From assembly GCA_025526935.1 (NCBI GenBank), contig JAHLKD010000043.1:186001-250000 (forward strand): DNA of 64,000 nt, read 5' to 3'. A model generated the notes under the pieces. That model was given only the letters and a program-made list of their open reading frames with translations. It searched no databases and had not been told where the DNA came from. Both the position numbers and the translations under genes were made by a program. Source of the stretch: Cladochytrium replicatum. Its lineage: Eukaryota > Chytridiomycota > Chytridiomycetes > Cladochytriales > Cladochytriaceae. Of this stretch, positions 19,313 to 26,136 are shown piece by piece (position 1 is the first letter of the stretch; the number at the start of each line of letters is the position of its first letter).

Positions 19313-19386
19313 CTCCCGCGGGAAGGCTCGAACTTCCAACCTCCTGGTTAACAGCCAAACGCGCTAGCCAATTGCGCCACGCGGGA
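19313..19386 (-). tRNA. tRNA-Asn (anticodon GTT)
   Basis: A 73-nt cloverleaf plus discriminator G. The acceptor stem TCCCGCG pairs with CGCGGGA. The D arm is GCGC/GCGC. The anticodon loop CTGTTAA gives GTT, read as Asn. The T arm GGAAG-TTCGAGC-CTTCC is perfect. The anticodon stem has two G-U pairs. No intron is present. It lies 6-10 bp from the start of a SINE. Confidence 0.88.
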
Positions 19387-19392
19387 TCCCTC

Positions 19393-19692
19393 CTGGACCT
19401 CATAGTGGCTCAGTCGCTACGAATGCGACTTTTCGAAGCTAAACTCCGCGGTTCGAATCCTATAGGGACTGGATTCGAATTTCCTACGAAATATATCTCT
19501 CGCAATATCGTGTCACGTGCAAGTACCGCGCCACACCTCCTTCGATTCGCCATTGCCTTCGCTCCTCTTTCCTACGGCTCGCACGGCTCCCCAAGTACTG
19601 AAGATTCCAAATCTTGGTTGAAGTACACGTGGGTGACATGTACTGATTAAGCATTGTCAATACATGTTATAACATTCAAAAAAAAAAAAAAA
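19393..19692 (+). mobile_element. tRNA-derived SINE, copy 1
   Basis: About 300 bp. The head has an internal RNA polymerase III promoter: box A TGGCTCAGTCG (19406-19416) and box B GGTTCGAATCC (19450-19460), 33 nt apart. A unique body follows. The tail from about 19568 matches the 3' end of the neighbouring LINE (TTTCCTACGGCTCGCACGG) and ends in a hairpin (ACATGTACT at 19636-19644 with AATACATGT at 19659-19667) and a 15-nt A-run. A second copy lies at 24516-24785. The exact 5' boundary is uncertain by a few bases. Confidence 0.85.
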
Positions 19693-22600
19693 CTGTTGAA
19701 CTTACACGCCCTCTCTCTCTTTCTCTCTCTCTCCCTCTCTCTCTCTCTCAAAAATCAATGCCGCACCCCCCGCTGTGCCCCCTGATGGACTTTCTGGTGG
19801 CACCGTGATTTTTGAGGCCCGTTCGCACCCCCGTGCCTCCTCTGTTGAAAATTCCGCTCCACAGCTTCCATTCTCCGCTCCTGCCTCTCCAATTCACTGG
19901 GCCGATGATGTGAATATGGGGGAGGATGAAAATGCCGAATCACGTGACTTCCGATCACGTGACCGACGCGCCAAAAGACCTGCTGAACATGAATTGCCCC
20001 GTGGTCGCTCCCGTTCTCGTTCCCGATCACATCTGCCGGGTGTCCGGATTCTTGCTGCTGTGGCTGCTCCCTCGAGTGTTGCATCTCTGGCCGATCTCCG
20101 TGTCGTTCTCACTCAGATGCGATCTGTTTGTGCAACCTTTGATCCGTTGGCGATGCTGGATCCTATGCTTGCACACTTGCCGAGGGACACTCCTGCTGAA
20201 TTTTTTAGTGTTTGTCGTGATATGGCCGAGGATCTGGTGGGTCGCTTTGGGAGGCCGCTGCCTTCGCCTTCACCTCCGGTTGCCCCTGTCTCCCGCCATG
20301 ATGATGCTGTGTGCCTTCCCCCTAGACAACTGCATGGTAATCCTTCAATTCAGGACGATCTTGGGAACTCTGGTGCTCCTGGCCCTCGCCCCCCGTCTAG
20401 TCGACCTGCCCCACGTGGACATCGTGGTCCACGCACTTATGCCGCTGCTGCTGCCAATGCCCGTGCCCGTGTGCTTGAGAGTCTCCCCACACTGAGTGCT
20501 GAATCTCGTACAGAAGCTGTCAGGACTGCCCTTGCTGGTCGTGACCCCACTTCGAATGTCAGCCTTCGTGGCCCTCGGCCTGTCGTATTCTATCCTCCGA
20601 CCTCTCCGCTGCTGGTCTCCCCACCTGCTGATCTTCAGGCCCGTGTGGATGATTTGACCACTGTGTACATCAAGGACATCATGAGACAGCGGCTCGGCTT
20701 TGTGCGGACCATGGTGTGGGCCCTCTTGGGCGATGAGGTGGTGCGTGGTATCCGCCACATCAGTTTCGTTGGTCGCAACATTGCTTCCTTTATCTGTATT
20801 CGCTCAACCGCAATTGCTCTCCGTGCGCACTTCTCCACCCAGGAAGCTTCCACTGACGAATCAAACCCTGACTTTCTTCGCCGAGCCTCTACTCTGCCTT
20901 TGGAGCAGCGGGAGGCTGCGGTCAGGGAAGTTGTCCACAAGAGATATGCACATATCCTCAGTTCAGTTACTGATCCTGCTATTTTCCTGTATGTCCGTGG
21001 TCAGCTCCCCATGGATGCTCAGGAAACTGTGCTGGACAGTGCCCGCGGGATTGCGTGTCAGCCTCGCTCAACCCATCTTCATCAATGATTAGTGTTCGAG
21101 TTGGTACCTTCAATTGTCGCAATTTGAGCTTTGGAGTTCTTGATTCACTGTTTCGTTTTATGCGCACAAATCACATTGTTTTTCTGCTCCTGACTGAAAC
21201 ACACCTTTTTCCTTTAGACCCGCTGCCTTCTCCGGATTTGATTTTTGACACTCGTTTTTCTCCTGGGTCATCGGGTACACGACGGGCTGGTGTGGGAGTC
21301 TTGATCAATCGCAGTCTTTGTAGAGCTTCTGATTTCCGTCTCGTTTCTAGTTATGGTGGCACCTCTCTATGGTTTACATTTCGTGGGCTTTTGGTTGGAG
21401 GGTATTATTTGCCTCCGTGTGATATTGCTCAGGACCCCTTCCTTGAAGAGTTTATTGCTTCACTTCCTCAACATGTCCCGTCGTCTCCGTGCCCTGTTCT
21501 TTTGTTAGGCGATTTCAATGCCCGTTTTTTAGCTACTGGTGATCATTCTTCAAATCATAGGGGTAGGTTGTTTGAGCAATTTAATTCTGCCGCTAGTTTC
21601 TCTCTAGTTAAGCACCCTTCCTGTCATAACCCCACATTTTCTTCTCGCAATGGTGACTCCATTATCGATTTGTTGTTTGTCAATCCTCTGCTTCAATGTG
21701 ATCCTATTTCTTACATAGTTCATAGTCGTCTAGCCGACAGCGAGTTTATGCCTTGGGCTTCTGACCATTTTCCGGTTACAGCTGTTTTTTCTTTTGCTCC
21801 TCCCAATGCCAGCGCTCCCTCTGCTGCACCCCCCACAAGCGCTGGGCTGCTCATCTGTTGCGTGAACCTGCTGTCTTTCAAGCAATGGAGGATGTGGGAC
21901 ATTTGTTTTTTGATCCCACCCTTGCTGATGTCAATGCTGCGCTCAGTCCAATTTTAGAAGCCCTTTGCCCAAATGTCTGTGGATGTTGCACAGGGATTTA
22001 TTGACTCTGCATTGGATATTATTTTGTCCTTTGTTACTTCGTGTGCTGCTTGTGTCATTGGACCCCCCAGTTTAGTTCGCCGTCGCCCTGCCCTGCCATT
22101 GTTGCCGCCGCATTTAGTGGCCTTGCGACGGAGCTACTTACTTGCTCATAAGCACTATTTAGCTGTTTCTTCCTGTGATGATCCTGATCCTGGTTTAGTT
22201 GAGTATTGCCGCTTGGAGCGTGACCGGCTATCGCGTGAGCGTGTCAAAGCTTTTCGTACTTGGTCTCTTTCTCAGCGAGCTCGAGAGGCTTCTGGCGACA
22301 ATATGTTTAGTTCTTCTCCTAGTTCTTTAACCGAGGTTAGCAAAGTTCTTTCCACCGCGCGTAGGTGTCATCAACGGCGCTCAGCTGCAAGTGGTTTATT
22401 GTCTGATCCTGCCTCTTTATCTCATTATCGCAATCACTTTGCCTCCGTTTATCAGACTCAGTTTGCACAATCCTCTGCCAGTGCAGAACACGTTCATCTA
22501 CATGCGCTGAATGATTCTGTGTCAGTTAGTGTTAGTGACTTTGTTTGTGCTATTCGTTCTTCCCCAAACAACTCTGCTCCTGGCCCAAACCATATTCCAG

Positions 22601-24423
22601 CTGAGTTATTTAAGCCGTTAGCTTCTGATGTTGCTATCCTTTTTGTTCAACTTTCAAACGCTATTTTCCGTTCAGGTTTGTCGCCCTCTGCCTGGAATGC
22701 TGGCTTGTTGTTACCTGTTTGGAAGAATAAGGGCTCCATAGGTGATATTAGTCAGTACCGCCCCATTACTTTAACCAATGTTGATAGAAAAATCTTTGAG
22801 CGTACCCTGCTTCCTATGCTTGTAGCTCACGTTGGTAAACTTGATCCCGCCCAAGCTGGTTTCCAGGCCAATCGTTCAGGTGTTGATTGTGTTTTTGCAT
22901 TAGATGCTACCCTTCGACGGGCTTCCCGCACTGCTCTGCCTTATTGTGTTACTTTCTTAGATATTAAAGCAGCGTATGATACTGTGCATAGGCCTCTTTT
23001 GTGGGAACATCTTCGTCAATTTCCCAGAATTCCAAACCGTTTGATCTCTGTTTTGATGAGTATGTTTGATCGTTGTTCTTCTCAGGTTGTTATAGAGAAT
23101 CGTTCTTCTGATTTGTTTTCGCTTCCACGAGGTCTTTTTCAAGGTTCTGTTTTGTCTCCGTTCTTGTACTCAGTTTTCATCAATCCTTTAGCACAGCTCC
23201 TTCGTCGTGAATCTTCTCATCTTGCTAGGTTTTCTTATAACACTCCTGTTTTCAATTCGTTGTTTTTTGCTGATGACATAGCTTTGTTTTCTGCCACCCC
23301 TGAGCAAGCCCAACGTGCATTGAAAATTTGTGAAGATTTTGCTTTAGCTTCTCATTTTGTGTTTTCACCTTCAAAGTGTGCTGTGTTATCTTCTCAACGG
23401 TTACCCACCCCCTTGAAGCTTCATGGCTCTGCCCTCCCTGTAGAGGTTTCATTTAGATACCTTGGTCACTATTTTACTATTGAAGGGTTTGATCTTGCTG
23501 CAACTATTGATCATCGCTTAGAGAAAGCTCGTGCCTCATTGTATCTTTTTGCACCTTATGTCTCGTACTTTGGTGGGTCTGCTCCTCGTGTTGCCAGGTT
23601 GTTGTTTTTGTCTTTTATTAGACCTTCACTTGAGTTTGGTTTAGCACTTATTCGGCCTTCCACTGCTCAGCTTCAGGTACTCGAGCGTTTTTGTTATCAT
23701 GCACTGTGTCGTCTGTTTTCGATAGCCCATACCACTTCGCGTGTTGGTTTGTTGCTGTTAGCGCAAATTCCTACTTTTGAGTTCAGGCTGAAATACCTTC
23801 AAGCACGTATGTTTGCTCGCTGGTCTAGTGATTCCAGCCCTCTGTTACCAGCTGCCCCTGTCCGCAATTTGAAACTTCGCCACCCTTTGTTGCTACCCCC
23901 ACACCAACATCTCCCAACAGTATGTCTTCGTTTGTTCCTGCTATATCGGCTTGGCCGCCTGTTTCCAAACCCCCGACCTTATTGTAGGAACTGTCATGAT
24001 GCCCCAGAAGTGTCGCGTGCCCATGTCTCTGTGTGTCTACATTTGCGTGCTAGTTTGTCTGCTAGTTTTGATTTAGGCCCGCCTGACGATCCCCGCCTAC
24101 CTCTTGACATTGCAATTGATATGCTTTCACCACGGCCTTTTTATCCTTTGCCTGCTTTTTCCCAGTGGGTTCTTGTTCTTCGTGCACTTAACCGCATTTG
24201 GTCAAACTGTCTTGGTTATGAGTTAGTTTTGTCTCCAGCTCCTGCTTTGTTGATTTGGATATGCCTTAGTGTTTTGAAACATTTTACTTTTCCTATGGCT
24301 CGCACGGCTCCCCATGTGCTGCCAATTTACGTGTATTTTTACACTTGTATTTGGATTTTGCACCAGCGGGTGATATGCATTGGTTGGACAATAAATTCAT
24401 ATTATAAAGTTCCAAAAAAAAAA
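19693..24423 (+). mobile_element. APE-class non-LTR retrotransposon (LINE), near full length
   Basis: About 4.7 kb directly after the A-tail of SINE copy 1. It has a CT-rich leader, ORF1, an overlapping ORF2 (endonuclease plus reverse transcriptase) and a 3' end with hairpin and A-run (24414-24423). ORF2 carries two frameshifts, so this copy is probably inactive. Clade unassigned: no RNase H domain was seen. Partial copies lie at 24785-25930, 25950-26136 and 26137-26640. Confidence 0.9.
19775..21088 (+). CDS. LINE ORF1 protein
   Basis: About 437 codons to the TGA at 21086-21088. The N-terminal third has a basic Arg/Ser block (RSRSRSRSH) suited to RNA binding. The rest is Pro/Ala-rich with an ordered region near the end (DIMRQRLGFVRTMVWALLGD). 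No CCHC zinc knuckle was found, unlike many LINE ORF1 proteins. The start is unresolved: the first position in the frame is GTG, the ATG at 19758 is out of frame, and the first in-frame ATG is at 19916. The stop overlaps the ORF2 start as ATGA. A decayed copy of the ORF1 end lies at 26150-26320. Confidence 0.75.
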   Translation: MPPDGLSGGTVIFEARSHPRASSVENSAPQLPFSAPASPIHWADDVNMGEDENAESRDFRSRDRRAKRPAEHELPRGRSRSRSRSHLPGVRILAAVAAPSSVASLADLRVVLTQMRSVCATFDPLAMLDPMLAHLPRDTPAEFFSVCRDMAEDLVGRFGRPLPSPSPPVAPVSRHDDAVCLPPRQLHGNPSIQDDLGNSGAPGPRPPSSRPAPRGHRGPRTYAAAAANARARVLESLPTLSAESRTEAVRTALAGRDPTSNVSLRGPRPVVFYPPTSPLLVSPPADLQARVDDLTTVYIKDIMRQRLGFVRTMVWALLGDEVVRGIRHISFVGRNIASFICIRSTAIALRAHFSTQEASTDESNPDFLRRASTLPLEQREAAVREVVHKRYAHILSSVTDPAIFLYVRGQLPMDAQETVLDSARGIACQPRSTHLHQ

Positions 24424-24474
24424 TTTCTATATAGTTGCACGCGCTTTACCAAGTCGATGGGAAACAGTCAGTGA
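21085..24474 (+). pseudogene. LINE ORF2: APE endonuclease and reverse transcriptase, frameshifted
   Basis: Starts at ATG 21085, overlapping the ORF1 stop. The endonuclease has the APE signatures FNCRN, LLTETHLF, LLGDFNARF, SIIDLLF and ASDHFPV. The reverse transcriptase has YRPITLTNVDRKIFERTL, VTFLDIKAAYDTVHRP, LPRGLFQGSVLSPFLY and the catalytic SLFFADDIALFS. A C-terminal zinc motif CRNCHDAPEVSRAHVSVC fits CX2CX9HX3C. Two shifts break the frame: one after the C-run near 21828-21836, one between about 21957 and 21973. The last frame stays open through the 3' hairpin and A-run to 24474 outside the element, so the original stop also seems lost or absent. Confidence 0.88.
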
Positions 24475-24501
24475 AAGATCAAATCCAGTATCCGTAAAAA
24501 A
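24434..24501 (-). repeat. Inverted LINE segment (left arm of a 68-bp inverted repeat)
   Basis: The reverse complement matches 24785-24852 with two mismatches. The sequence encodes part of the LINE reverse transcriptase (TGFDVSLTVSHRL-like, matching EGFDLAATIDHRL). The two arms flank SINE copy 2. Confidence 0.9.
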
Positions 24502-24515
24502 CTATAAAAATAACA

Positions 24516-24785
24516 GGCTCAGTCGGTACAAATGCGACTTTTCGAAGCTAAACTCCACGGTTCGAATCCTATAGGGGACCGGATTCGAATTTCCTATGAA
24601 ATATATCTCTCGCAATATCGTGTCATGTGCAGGTACCGCGCCACACCTCCTTCGATTCGCCGTTACCTTCGCTCCTCTTTCCTACGGCTCGCACGGCTCC
24701 CCAAGTACTGAAGATTCCAAATCTTGGTTGAAGTACACGTGGGTGACATGTACTGATTAAGCATTGTCAATACATGTTATAACAT
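24516..24785 (+). mobile_element. tRNA-derived SINE, copy 2 (5'-truncated)
   Basis: About 270 bp, matching copy 1 with scattered substitutions. Box A (GGCTCAGTCGG, 24516-24526) and box B (GGTTCGAATCC, 24559-24569) are present; the bases before box A are missing. The 3' hairpin arms are at 24746-24754 and 24769-24777. It has no long A-tail and sits between the two inverted LINE arms. Confidence 0.85.
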
Positions 24786-25930
24786 TTTTTACGGATACTG
24801 GATTTGATGTTTCACTGACTGTTTCCCATCGACTTGCTAAAGCGCGTGCAACTGACTGTTTCCCATCGACTTGCTAAAGCACGTGCAACTTCTTTTGCTT
24901 TGCTTTCTTTTTCAAGGATGTTTGGTTCTCATTCTCTGGTTGTGGTTCGTCATTTGTTTTTGTCTTTTATTCGACCCCTCTTGCTGTTTGCAAACCAGTT
25001 CGGACTTTTATTCACCAAAGTTTGTGTAGATTTCTTCGCCTTTCATTTTCCACTTCAATTGCTGGGGTTTTGCTGTTTTTTAAGTTTCCATCTGCAGTTT
25101 CAGATGTTTCAGCATTGGTTGGATAATGATGCCCCTGATATGGTTCATGTTGTCATTCTTTCTTCACCAGGGAAAGCATTTTCATTGTTCTCCTGTTCCT
25201 TTCATCAATCCCTTCCTCTTCCCAGCAGCAAATGTTATAGTTCCCAAACCTCCTGATGTTATTGCAAATCACGTTCACAACTAGCCTCATCTGCCTATGG
25301 TTCTATAGCTGCTAGCTTTGCTCCCCTTGCATCTGCCCACCCTCATGCGCTAGCAATTGCTCCTCTGTGCTTCCCTATTTCGTCAATCTTGAGGCTTCAC
25401 CAGTATCGTCTGGGACGTTTGTTTTATCACCCCCACAAGCAGTGTTGTTGCTGCCGCGCTGCAACTCTCTCTAGATCTCATGTTTCAGAATGTTTGCGCC
25501 TTGACCTATTGTTGCCTCCTGTTCCTGTTCCTGTTTTACAGCTTCCGCTTGATGTTGCAATTGTTAGCCTTTGTTCACTTCGCATTGTCCAAGCGAATCT
25601 CGCACTGTGGTATCTTGTTTTTTGTTGTCTTCATAAGATTTGGCTTCACTTTATAGGTCTGCCGTTAGAAGTTTCTCCTCCAGACTCCCTCTTTGGCCCT
25701 GCATTTGTGGATCTTTCACGTTTTCTTTCTTCATTATTTATTACTCACCTGTTTTTTTGGCACCTTAGCAGTATCTGACGGGTAGCCACAGGTTTGAGTT
25801 TACTTTCTCTGTTTTTCTTTGTTGCTTTTCCTTATTCTGTGCGCGCCTCCATGTGTGCTGGTCCATGACCATCTTGTAAGGCACTTTGGGTGTTGTTTTT
25901 GTTATGCATTGTATGTGCAAAATAAATAAA
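24785..25930 (+). mobile_element. 5'-truncated LINE relic
   Basis: Encodes, with frame breaks, the C-terminal part of ORF2: SHRLAKARA, RHLFLSFIRP, QYRLGRLF, the zinc motif ending SRSHVSEC, and PLDVAI. These align in order with the intact LINE. It opens with a tandem 37-bp duplication (24816-24852 and 24853-24889). It ends in a short A/T-rich tail near 25917-25930. Confidence 0.8.
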
Positions 25931-25949
25931 TAATATTGTTTAAAAAGGA

Positions 25950-26136
25950 ATTCCTGATAGGTTAAGTTTTCATAATCCTTTTTTGCATTAGTTACCCACC
26001 ACACTTCCACCTGCACGCTTGGCTCCCCATGTGCTACAAGTGTACATGTTTTTACTAACATTTGTATTTTGGATTATGCACAAGCGGGGGATATGTATTG
26101 ATTTTTAATGAGTTAATACATATTATGAAATTCAGA
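25950..26136 (+). mobile_element. LINE 3'-end relic with perfect terminal hairpin
   Basis: Matches the last ~120 bp of the LINE (GGCTCCCCATGTGCT; GCACAAGCGGGGGATATG). The terminal hairpin ATATGTATT (26091-26099) and AATACATAT (26115-26123) pairs perfectly over 9 bp. Confidence 0.75.

Follow-up and report, generated by a model that had tools for sequence, protein, structure and literature searches.

The 64,000-nucleotide stretch of DNA analysed here (contig JAHLKD010000043.1, positions 186,001 to 250,000; hereafter the window) carries a tRNA-Asn gene beside which transposable elements form an array: a short interspersed element (SINE 1), a long interspersed element (LINE A), a second SINE copy (SINE 2) and pieces of another LINE family, LINE B. 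The original prediction for this locus concerned a 3' tail shared by the two SINEs and the LINE between them. We find that this tail is common to the two families across the genome, and that copies of both lie head to head with tRNA genes, on the 5' side. The array comprises the following features.

19313..19386, minus strand: tRNA-Asn(gtt) gene, anchor of the array, 5' end toward SINE 1 (ARAGORN)
19387..19395, no strand: residual 5' flank between tRNA-Asn and SINE 1, 9 bp (sequence reading)
19396..19677, plus strand: SINE copy 1, composed of a box A/box B head, a body and a LINE-like tail
19568..19593, plus strand: SINE 1 copy of the common 26-nt tail block
19634..19669, plus strand: terminal hairpin of the SINE 1 tail (folding)
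19678..19692, plus strand: poly(A) tail of SINE 1
19693..19709, no strand: linker from the SINE 1 poly(A) to the LINE A 5' end
19710..24413, plus strand: LINE A copy, defective, with a CT-rich run at its start
19775..21088, plus strand: region of LINE A open reading frame 1 (ORF1; mechanical ORF), no Pfam family
21055..21957, plus strand: part of ORF2 with an apurinic/apyrimidinic endonuclease (APE)-type domain (PF14529, E 1.4e-13; PF03372, E 3.4e-9)
21973..24474, plus strand: part of ORF2 with reverse transcriptase (RT; PF00078, E 1.2e-30)
24289..24314, plus strand: LINE A copy of the common 26-nt tail block
24414..24423, plus strand: poly(A) tail of LINE A
24433..24501, minus strand: inverted LINE B-like piece, left arm of a 69-nt inverted repeat (LINE B likeness by eye)
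24516..24785, plus strand: SINE copy 2, old, without poly(A), between the inverted-repeat arms
24678..24703, plus strand: SINE 2 copy of the common 26-nt tail block
24786..25946, plus strand: LINE B piece with related tail, next array unit (by eye)
26018..26134, plus strand: decayed LINE A-like tail, further array unit (by eye)

SINE 1 stands head to head with the tRNA-Asn gene, 9 bp away if its start is placed at GACC and 13 bp away if at TCATAG, and shows 2 differences from the majority SINE. The picture of two SINEs flanking a LINE holds as far as the shared tails are concerned, but needs qualifying otherwise. The window LINE A is defective, its ORF2 being split into 21055-21957 and 21973-24474. 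SINE 2, with 15 differences among the two most diverged of 43 full-length SINE copies compared, is not a canonical insertion, because it lacks poly(A), is highly divergent and sits inside the 69-nt inverted repeat, whose right arm is 24785-24853.

Structure of the elements

The organization of LINE A was read from two full-length copies elsewhere in the genome (L150 and L152; 99.3% identity), in which a CT-rich run is followed by ORF1 and then by ORF2 with a 4-nt overlap. ORF2 is open over 1126 aa in 2/2 full-length copies examined. Pfam matches in the L150 ORF2 comprise an APE-type endonuclease (E 8.3e-13) and an RT (E 2.9e-30) and no RNase H, and a CCHC-like cysteine/histidine motif near its end was recognized by eye. 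The L150 protein thereby has the arrangement that marks the L1 group: APE endonuclease, then RT, without RNase H. Of the solved RTs, 8c8j and human L1 ORF2p come closest to that of the window LINE A (E about 2e-23), with R2 behind (E 1e-18), a ranking by similarity and not a tree. LINE B resembles LINE A in its tail, and the ORF1s of the two families share 35% identity; neither ORF1 matches a Pfam family, and in the sole LINE B copy examined (L151) ORF2 is broken. Full-length copies of both families begin with a long, variable (CT)n run (19710-19749 in the window; also L048, L131, L141 and L144).

The SINE is ~280 bp long, and its head contains the two promoter boxes, A and B, spaced as in a tRNA gene, judged against the general consensus of these boxes. 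Head positions 9-20 and 51-61 align to tRNA positions 10-21 and 52-62, both being short matches. Similarity of the head to a particular tRNA over its full length was considered and rejected, as it did not exceed the best shuffle (best global score 14, against a shuffled mean of 9.8 and maximum of 16). Nearly all copies examined, LINE and SINE, end in poly(A).

A 3' tail common to the SINE and LINE A

The tail motifs first noted in the two SINEs and the LINE are present and form one contiguous 26-nt block, TTTCCTAYGGCTCGCACGGCTCCCCA, at 19568-19593, 24289-24314 and 24678-24703. The predicted G-rich motif follows, as GTGGGTGA in the SINEs and GCGGGTGA in the LINE, and so does the terminal hairpin. 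Scanning the whole assembly (50.5 Mb, 198 contigs) with the 26-mer at ≤3 mismatches returned 377 matches, against 0 for the reversed control pattern, which excludes a chance origin of the block. Patterns specific to the SINE and LINE tails gave 132 and 253 genome matches, respectively, of which the first 100 places of each were listed.

Modal tails were built from 50 SINE, 49 LINE A and 31 LINE B instances, which include overlapping loci and are not all independent, and alignment z-scores were taken against 500 dinucleotide shuffles each. The consensus alignment suggested by the original prediction placed SINE and LINE A far above the shuffles (z 12.6), and the 26-nt block is identical in the two modal tails. 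A rival LINE did not match better: the SINE scored z 6.7 with LINE B, and the two LINE tails scored z 7.0 with each other. LINE A is therefore, of the two families compared, the better tail fit to the SINE. Single-sequence folding of the tails is weak (z -1.3 for the SINE, -2.2 and -1.0 for the LINE); between SINE 1 and LINE A, one C-G to U-A double change among the nine hairpin pairs was seen by eye. Among 20 SINE-tail matches examined, 18 were SINEs by their body and two were fragments matching the SINE only from about position 158 (L071, L085); none of the 20 joined a LINE body to the SINE's own version of the tail.

Position and orientation at tRNA genes

Searches with the LINE and SINE yielded 63 merged segments, 31 of which held one tRNA gene each by ARAGORN. 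In 31/31 the tRNA gene lay upstream of the array on the other strand, head to head with it, and 16 isotypes were represented; two of the 31 genes (both Gly, contig C44) are copies of one duplicated locus. Because these segments had been chosen by element, we ran the reverse test from the tRNA side. A covariance search, in which only the best candidates were scored, listed 62 tRNA genes, and 40 of the first 46 were picked without regard to repeats; the remaining six had already been found via element searches and all carry elements (6/6).

LINE/SINE-family matches were present in the 350-bp 5' flank of 38/40 tRNA genes and in the 150-bp 3' flank of 0/40. Two of the genes (L138, L140) are copies of one locus, giving an independent occupancy of 37/39. 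As a control, only one of 53 other pieces of the window matched the repeats, and that piece overlaps loci already collected. The first repeat base lay a median of 10.5 bp from the tRNA 5' end, within 20 bp in 27/38 flanks and within 100 bp in 38/38. Against oriented LINE A, LINE B and SINE references, 34/40 flanks matched, 33 of them head to head and one ambiguously, with a reverse and a forward match from the same base (L117). At four loci (L111, L121, L143, L147) the tRNA-adjacent repeats matched other loci and not these references; they are either further LINE sequence or another family.

The SINE was sampled separately. Of the first 22 places on its list, two had already been collected; among the other 20, eight start directly at a tRNA gene (seven by ARAGORN, L082 by eye), two have a tRNA gene no more than 300 bp away, with a short piece of element in between, and eight follow another element's poly(A). 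In 16 tRNA-adjacent copies among 43 distinct full-length SINEs, TCATAG begins 7-15 bp from the tRNA (median 11.5). These adjacent copies show 0-3 differences from the majority SINE in 16/16 cases, and the other 27 show 0-15.

Other genes transcribed by RNA polymerase III (Pol III) gave a different result. Flanks of two U6 genes (3 listed) and two 5S genes (8 listed) were readable over 92-97 bp only, and none of the four matched the repeats, versus 38/40 for tRNA genes (Fisher p 1.1e-4). The two U6 flanks (L153, L154) are partly alike and contain a TATA-like motif; those of 5S (L155, L156) are nearly alike, and the native promoters of both gene types look undisturbed. Telomere targeting, suggested by matches near contig ends, was dropped once the tRNA pattern accounted for these loci.

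Junctions and array growth

Of 152 sequences following a poly(A) tail, eight show a tRNA gene match in the expected orientation. Six of them (L044, L051, L098, L020, L027, L060) contain 14-54 nt of a tRNA up to its 5' end, starting ≤13 nt after the poly(A), whereas the matches in L031 and L018 are internal and were excluded. For the Arg (L044), Gly (L051) and Ala (L020) fragments, the anchoring tRNA gene of the array is the same tRNA. These fragments look like target duplications, and as the L051 duplicate also includes 5 bp of 5' flank, the second nick would fall ~5 bp upstream of the tRNA. At the same threshold 23 flanks matched on the opposite strand, through matches that were short among those listed (12-25 nt, E 0.026).

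Within arrays, a LINE on contig C12 lies between copies of a 25-nt duplication (L082, L092), and short linkers recur by eye at successive junctions (GCA in L105, GGTT in L108, GTAC in L102). Of 144 post-poly(A) flanks, 119 reach another element within 25 nt, 118 in the same orientation and one inverted; the other 25 reach something else, tRNA fragments included.

Proposed mechanism and alternatives

We consider it highly probable that LINE A is brought to tRNA genes, that the SINE uses the same machinery and the same address, and that one-way arrays grow by later insertion. A partnership between SINE and LINE A is likely because they have tail, target, orientation and poly(A) end in common and because LINE copies with an open ORF2 exist. 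The earlier proposal that the SINE is copied by the LINE RT agrees with all of this, as a likely reading of the sequences, but it missed the tRNA targeting.

In such a scheme, a particle made by LINE A, with ORF1 and with an ORF2 bearing APE endonuclease and RT, would be directed to tRNA genes and insert there by target priming. The target stretch would be duplicated, in some cases together with 14-54 nt of the tRNA 5' part, so that an intact tRNA gene would stay beside the insert. The SINE, with its Pol III-type head and LINE A-like tail, would be mobilised in trans by LINE A and, by using that machinery, would inherit the tRNA address. Later copies would enter beside the same tRNA gene or into the poly(A) tails of residents, building the one-way arrays. 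By analogy with TRE5-A and Ty3, the Pol III machinery at tRNA-type promoters may provide the tether. The elements may be active today.

Several observations pull the other way. Past the first 33 nt, the similarity of the SINE tail is weak and much the same to either LINE (z 2.9 for LINE A, 2.8 for LINE B). Two of the 40 tRNA genes (L112, L115) lack a repeat match in the 5' flank, and against whole segments two of 38 flanks (L129, L139) scored for the other strand; the latter are ties, since one reference segment contains an inverted copy, and both are head to head against the oriented references. In the SINE sample, one of 20 (L086) abuts the 5' end of an inverted LINE head to head, and another (L085) is an old fragment near which no tRNA was seen. 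The relation between SINE age and position is only a trend (Mann-Whitney one-sided p 0.07), and the U6/5S control consists of four flanks of 92-97 bp, in which a repeat starting near the far end would be missed. tRNA 5' fragments occur in just 6/152 poly(A) flanks, with weak matches in L027 and L060 (E 0.002). Clear target-site duplications (TSDs) are rare around tRNA-adjacent SINEs. A formal search for TSDs, as the original prediction had recommended, did find them at ≥6 nt in 14 of 41 SINEs versus 6.7 expected from shuffles, a modest excess much of which is poly(A).

An ordinary stringent-type LINE/SINE pair without target preference, as first proposed, accounts for the common tail as described, but its part on target preference is contradicted by the occupied tRNA 5' flanks (38/40) and the empty 3' flanks (0/40), and we find it scarcely credible. 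Alternatively, the tail could be shared by descent only and have no role, the SINE being moved via poly(A) alone (relaxed recognition). The poly(A) at the end of nearly all copies examined and the weak distal similarity of the tails (z 2.9) agree with that; however, the modal SINE and LINE A tails agree at every position of the 26-nt block, the tail alignments stand far above shuffles for both LINE families, and hairpin pairing survives one double change, although the folding z is weak, so that relaxed recognition appears improbable.

The tRNA address itself might reflect a safe haven, with insertion occurring widely at A-rich sites and copies away from tRNA genes being lost. L1-type LINEs are known for A-rich nick sites, and the apparent use of poly(A) tails as targets (119/144 flanks run into another element) fits such a site. 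This explanation is nevertheless very unlikely: the 5' junction falls within a few bp of a fixed point and keeps to one side and one orientation, with nothing in 40 3' flanks, and the tRNA-adjacent SINEs are young (0-3 differences in 16/16), leaving little time for filtering. Arrays might also arise in single events, by the RT jumping between RNA templates, and not by serial insertion. Chimeras of this origin have reportedly been described for Magnaporthe (PMC2104539), a median of 4 nt separates poly(A) from the next truncated element, and junctions from a SINE to a truncated LINE often lack a TSD. Against this stand the same short linkers at successive junctions (L105, L108, L102), as expected from serial insertion with short TSDs, the 25-nt TSD around one LINE inside an array, and the tRNA duplications within arrays in L051 and L044. 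As linkers and TSDs recur inside arrays, template jumping was set aside as their sole source, and overall we regard it as unlikely.

Returning to LINE A as the element that finds tRNA genes, we tentatively extend the reading to a LINE system that seeks tRNA genes regardless of isotype and arose in fungi independently of amoebae. Its targets would be Pol III promoters of the tRNA type only, with U6 and 5S spared, and almost all tRNA genes would by now be occupied; the SINE sharing the system would itself belong to the genes transcribed by Pol III. If so, the SINE would be transcribed by the same machinery that marks its landing site. A SINE sharing the address separates two questions, in that the tail bears on the choice of RNA to be copied, and the LINE protein or the Pol III machinery on the place of insertion. 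With 38/40 genes occupied, one may ask how a cell copes with mobile elements at nearly all of its tRNA promoters; the same occupancy turns the tRNA arrays into a record of insertion order.

Host and comparison with known systems

Ribosomal protein L3, pieced together from its exons, matched fungal chains ahead of animal chains. The genome also contains a flagellar radial-spoke gene. Because of the fungal-like L3 and this gene, the host looks like a flagellated fungus and is probably chytrid-like. If the system is indeed fungal, it would have converged on the tRNA address also used in social amoebae.

The closest parallels in position come from dictyostelids, to which all isotype-blind tRNA-targeted non-LTR (long terminal repeat) elements belong in the available portions of PMC5911963 and PMC5006619. 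There, TRE5-A of Dictyostelium discoideum is likewise upstream of tRNA genes, in opposite transcriptional orientation, with two ORFs, APE-RT and an oligo(A) end; TRE elements occupy 61% of tRNA genes in that species (38/40 here). TRE5-A enters farther upstream, at about 44-54 bp, and lands near 5S genes too, whereas the elements here lie about 4-15 bp away and the 5S flanks are empty (2/2 read). NLTR-A of Dictyostelium purpureum, also of a social amoeba, has an RNase H domain, which was not found here, and those portions mention no SINE partner for it, unlike the present case (PMC5006619, PMC5911963). Ty3 of budding yeast takes a similar position, the Pol III start site about 10-15 bp 5' of the mature tRNA, but is an LTR element with integrase that targets the whole Pol III gene set (PMC5911963, PMC5006619). 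NeSL-1_TV and the planarian LIN15_SM and LIN25_SM are, like LINE A, non-LTR and tRNA gene-specific, but are described with one isotype each and as NeSL relatives, of a restriction-like-endonuclease clade (PMC4640811); here there are 16 isotypes and an APE-type enzyme.

Tail-sharing LINE/SINE pairs are common, also among L1-type LINEs with poly(A) (PMC3747384). The SINEs of Chlamydomonas SINEX-3_CR / L1-1_CR and maize ZmSINE2/3 have the 3' end of an L1-clade LINE, as here; the Chlamydomonas pair also ends in poly(A), and in maize the tail forms a hairpin in which compensatory changes occur. These are pairs of a green alga and a plant, for which the part of PMC3747384 at hand reports no tRNA-gene targeting. 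The originally drawn likeness to the eel and turtle pairs is less apt than one to such poly(A)-keeping L1-type pairs, e.g. that of Chlamydomonas (PMC3747384). L3 and the radial-spoke gene support the early-diverging fungus of the original prediction. Tail sharing in a fungus is not new, having been reported for Aspergillus fumigatus, where AfuSINE2-1a, a tRNA-type SINE, has a LINE-like 3' end (PMC5063351). Its partner I-1_AF is a Tad-clade LINE with RNase H and AfuSINE2-1a ends in ACT repeats (according to the available part of PMC5063351); 'tRNA genes' does not occur in the main text of that paper.

The tRNA-targeted fungal elements named in the accessible part of PMC5911963 are LTR elements (e.g. 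Ty1, Ty3, Tj1), and Pol III targeting is expected there among other fungal elements, LINEs included. Among the open-access titles listed by our searches, there was neither a LINE from a fungus directed at tRNA genes nor a SINE with a target of that kind in common, which is not proof of absence. The component parts are of known kinds, and the novelty would lie in their combination, position and occupancy.

Further features of the arrays

The array anchored at tRNA-Asn extends by eye to about 26.1 kb of the window. Within it, SINE 2 lies between arms that look LINE B-like by eye (24433-24853), as though it were inside an inserted LINE whose 5' part is inverted. The segment comprising the LINE A tail, the palindrome, SINE 2 and the LINE B piece is repeated at 100% identity near the start of contig C18 (L009:1600-3196, L010:1-1598), and this copy is either a recent duplication or an assembly duplicate. 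About 170 nt near 23855 are missing from the window LINE A; they are present in nearly all other copies spanning the site, and not in the C18 duplicate.

One array was seen whole (L152), with two tRNA-like genes, a LINE and a SINE. There (L109/L152, C14:188746-189250) the tRNA-like genes stand in tandem ahead of a full-length LINE, and the nearer one may be degenerate. Contig C44 is rich in LINE A and SINE among the matches listed, and holds 8 of the 40 best-scored LINE tails.

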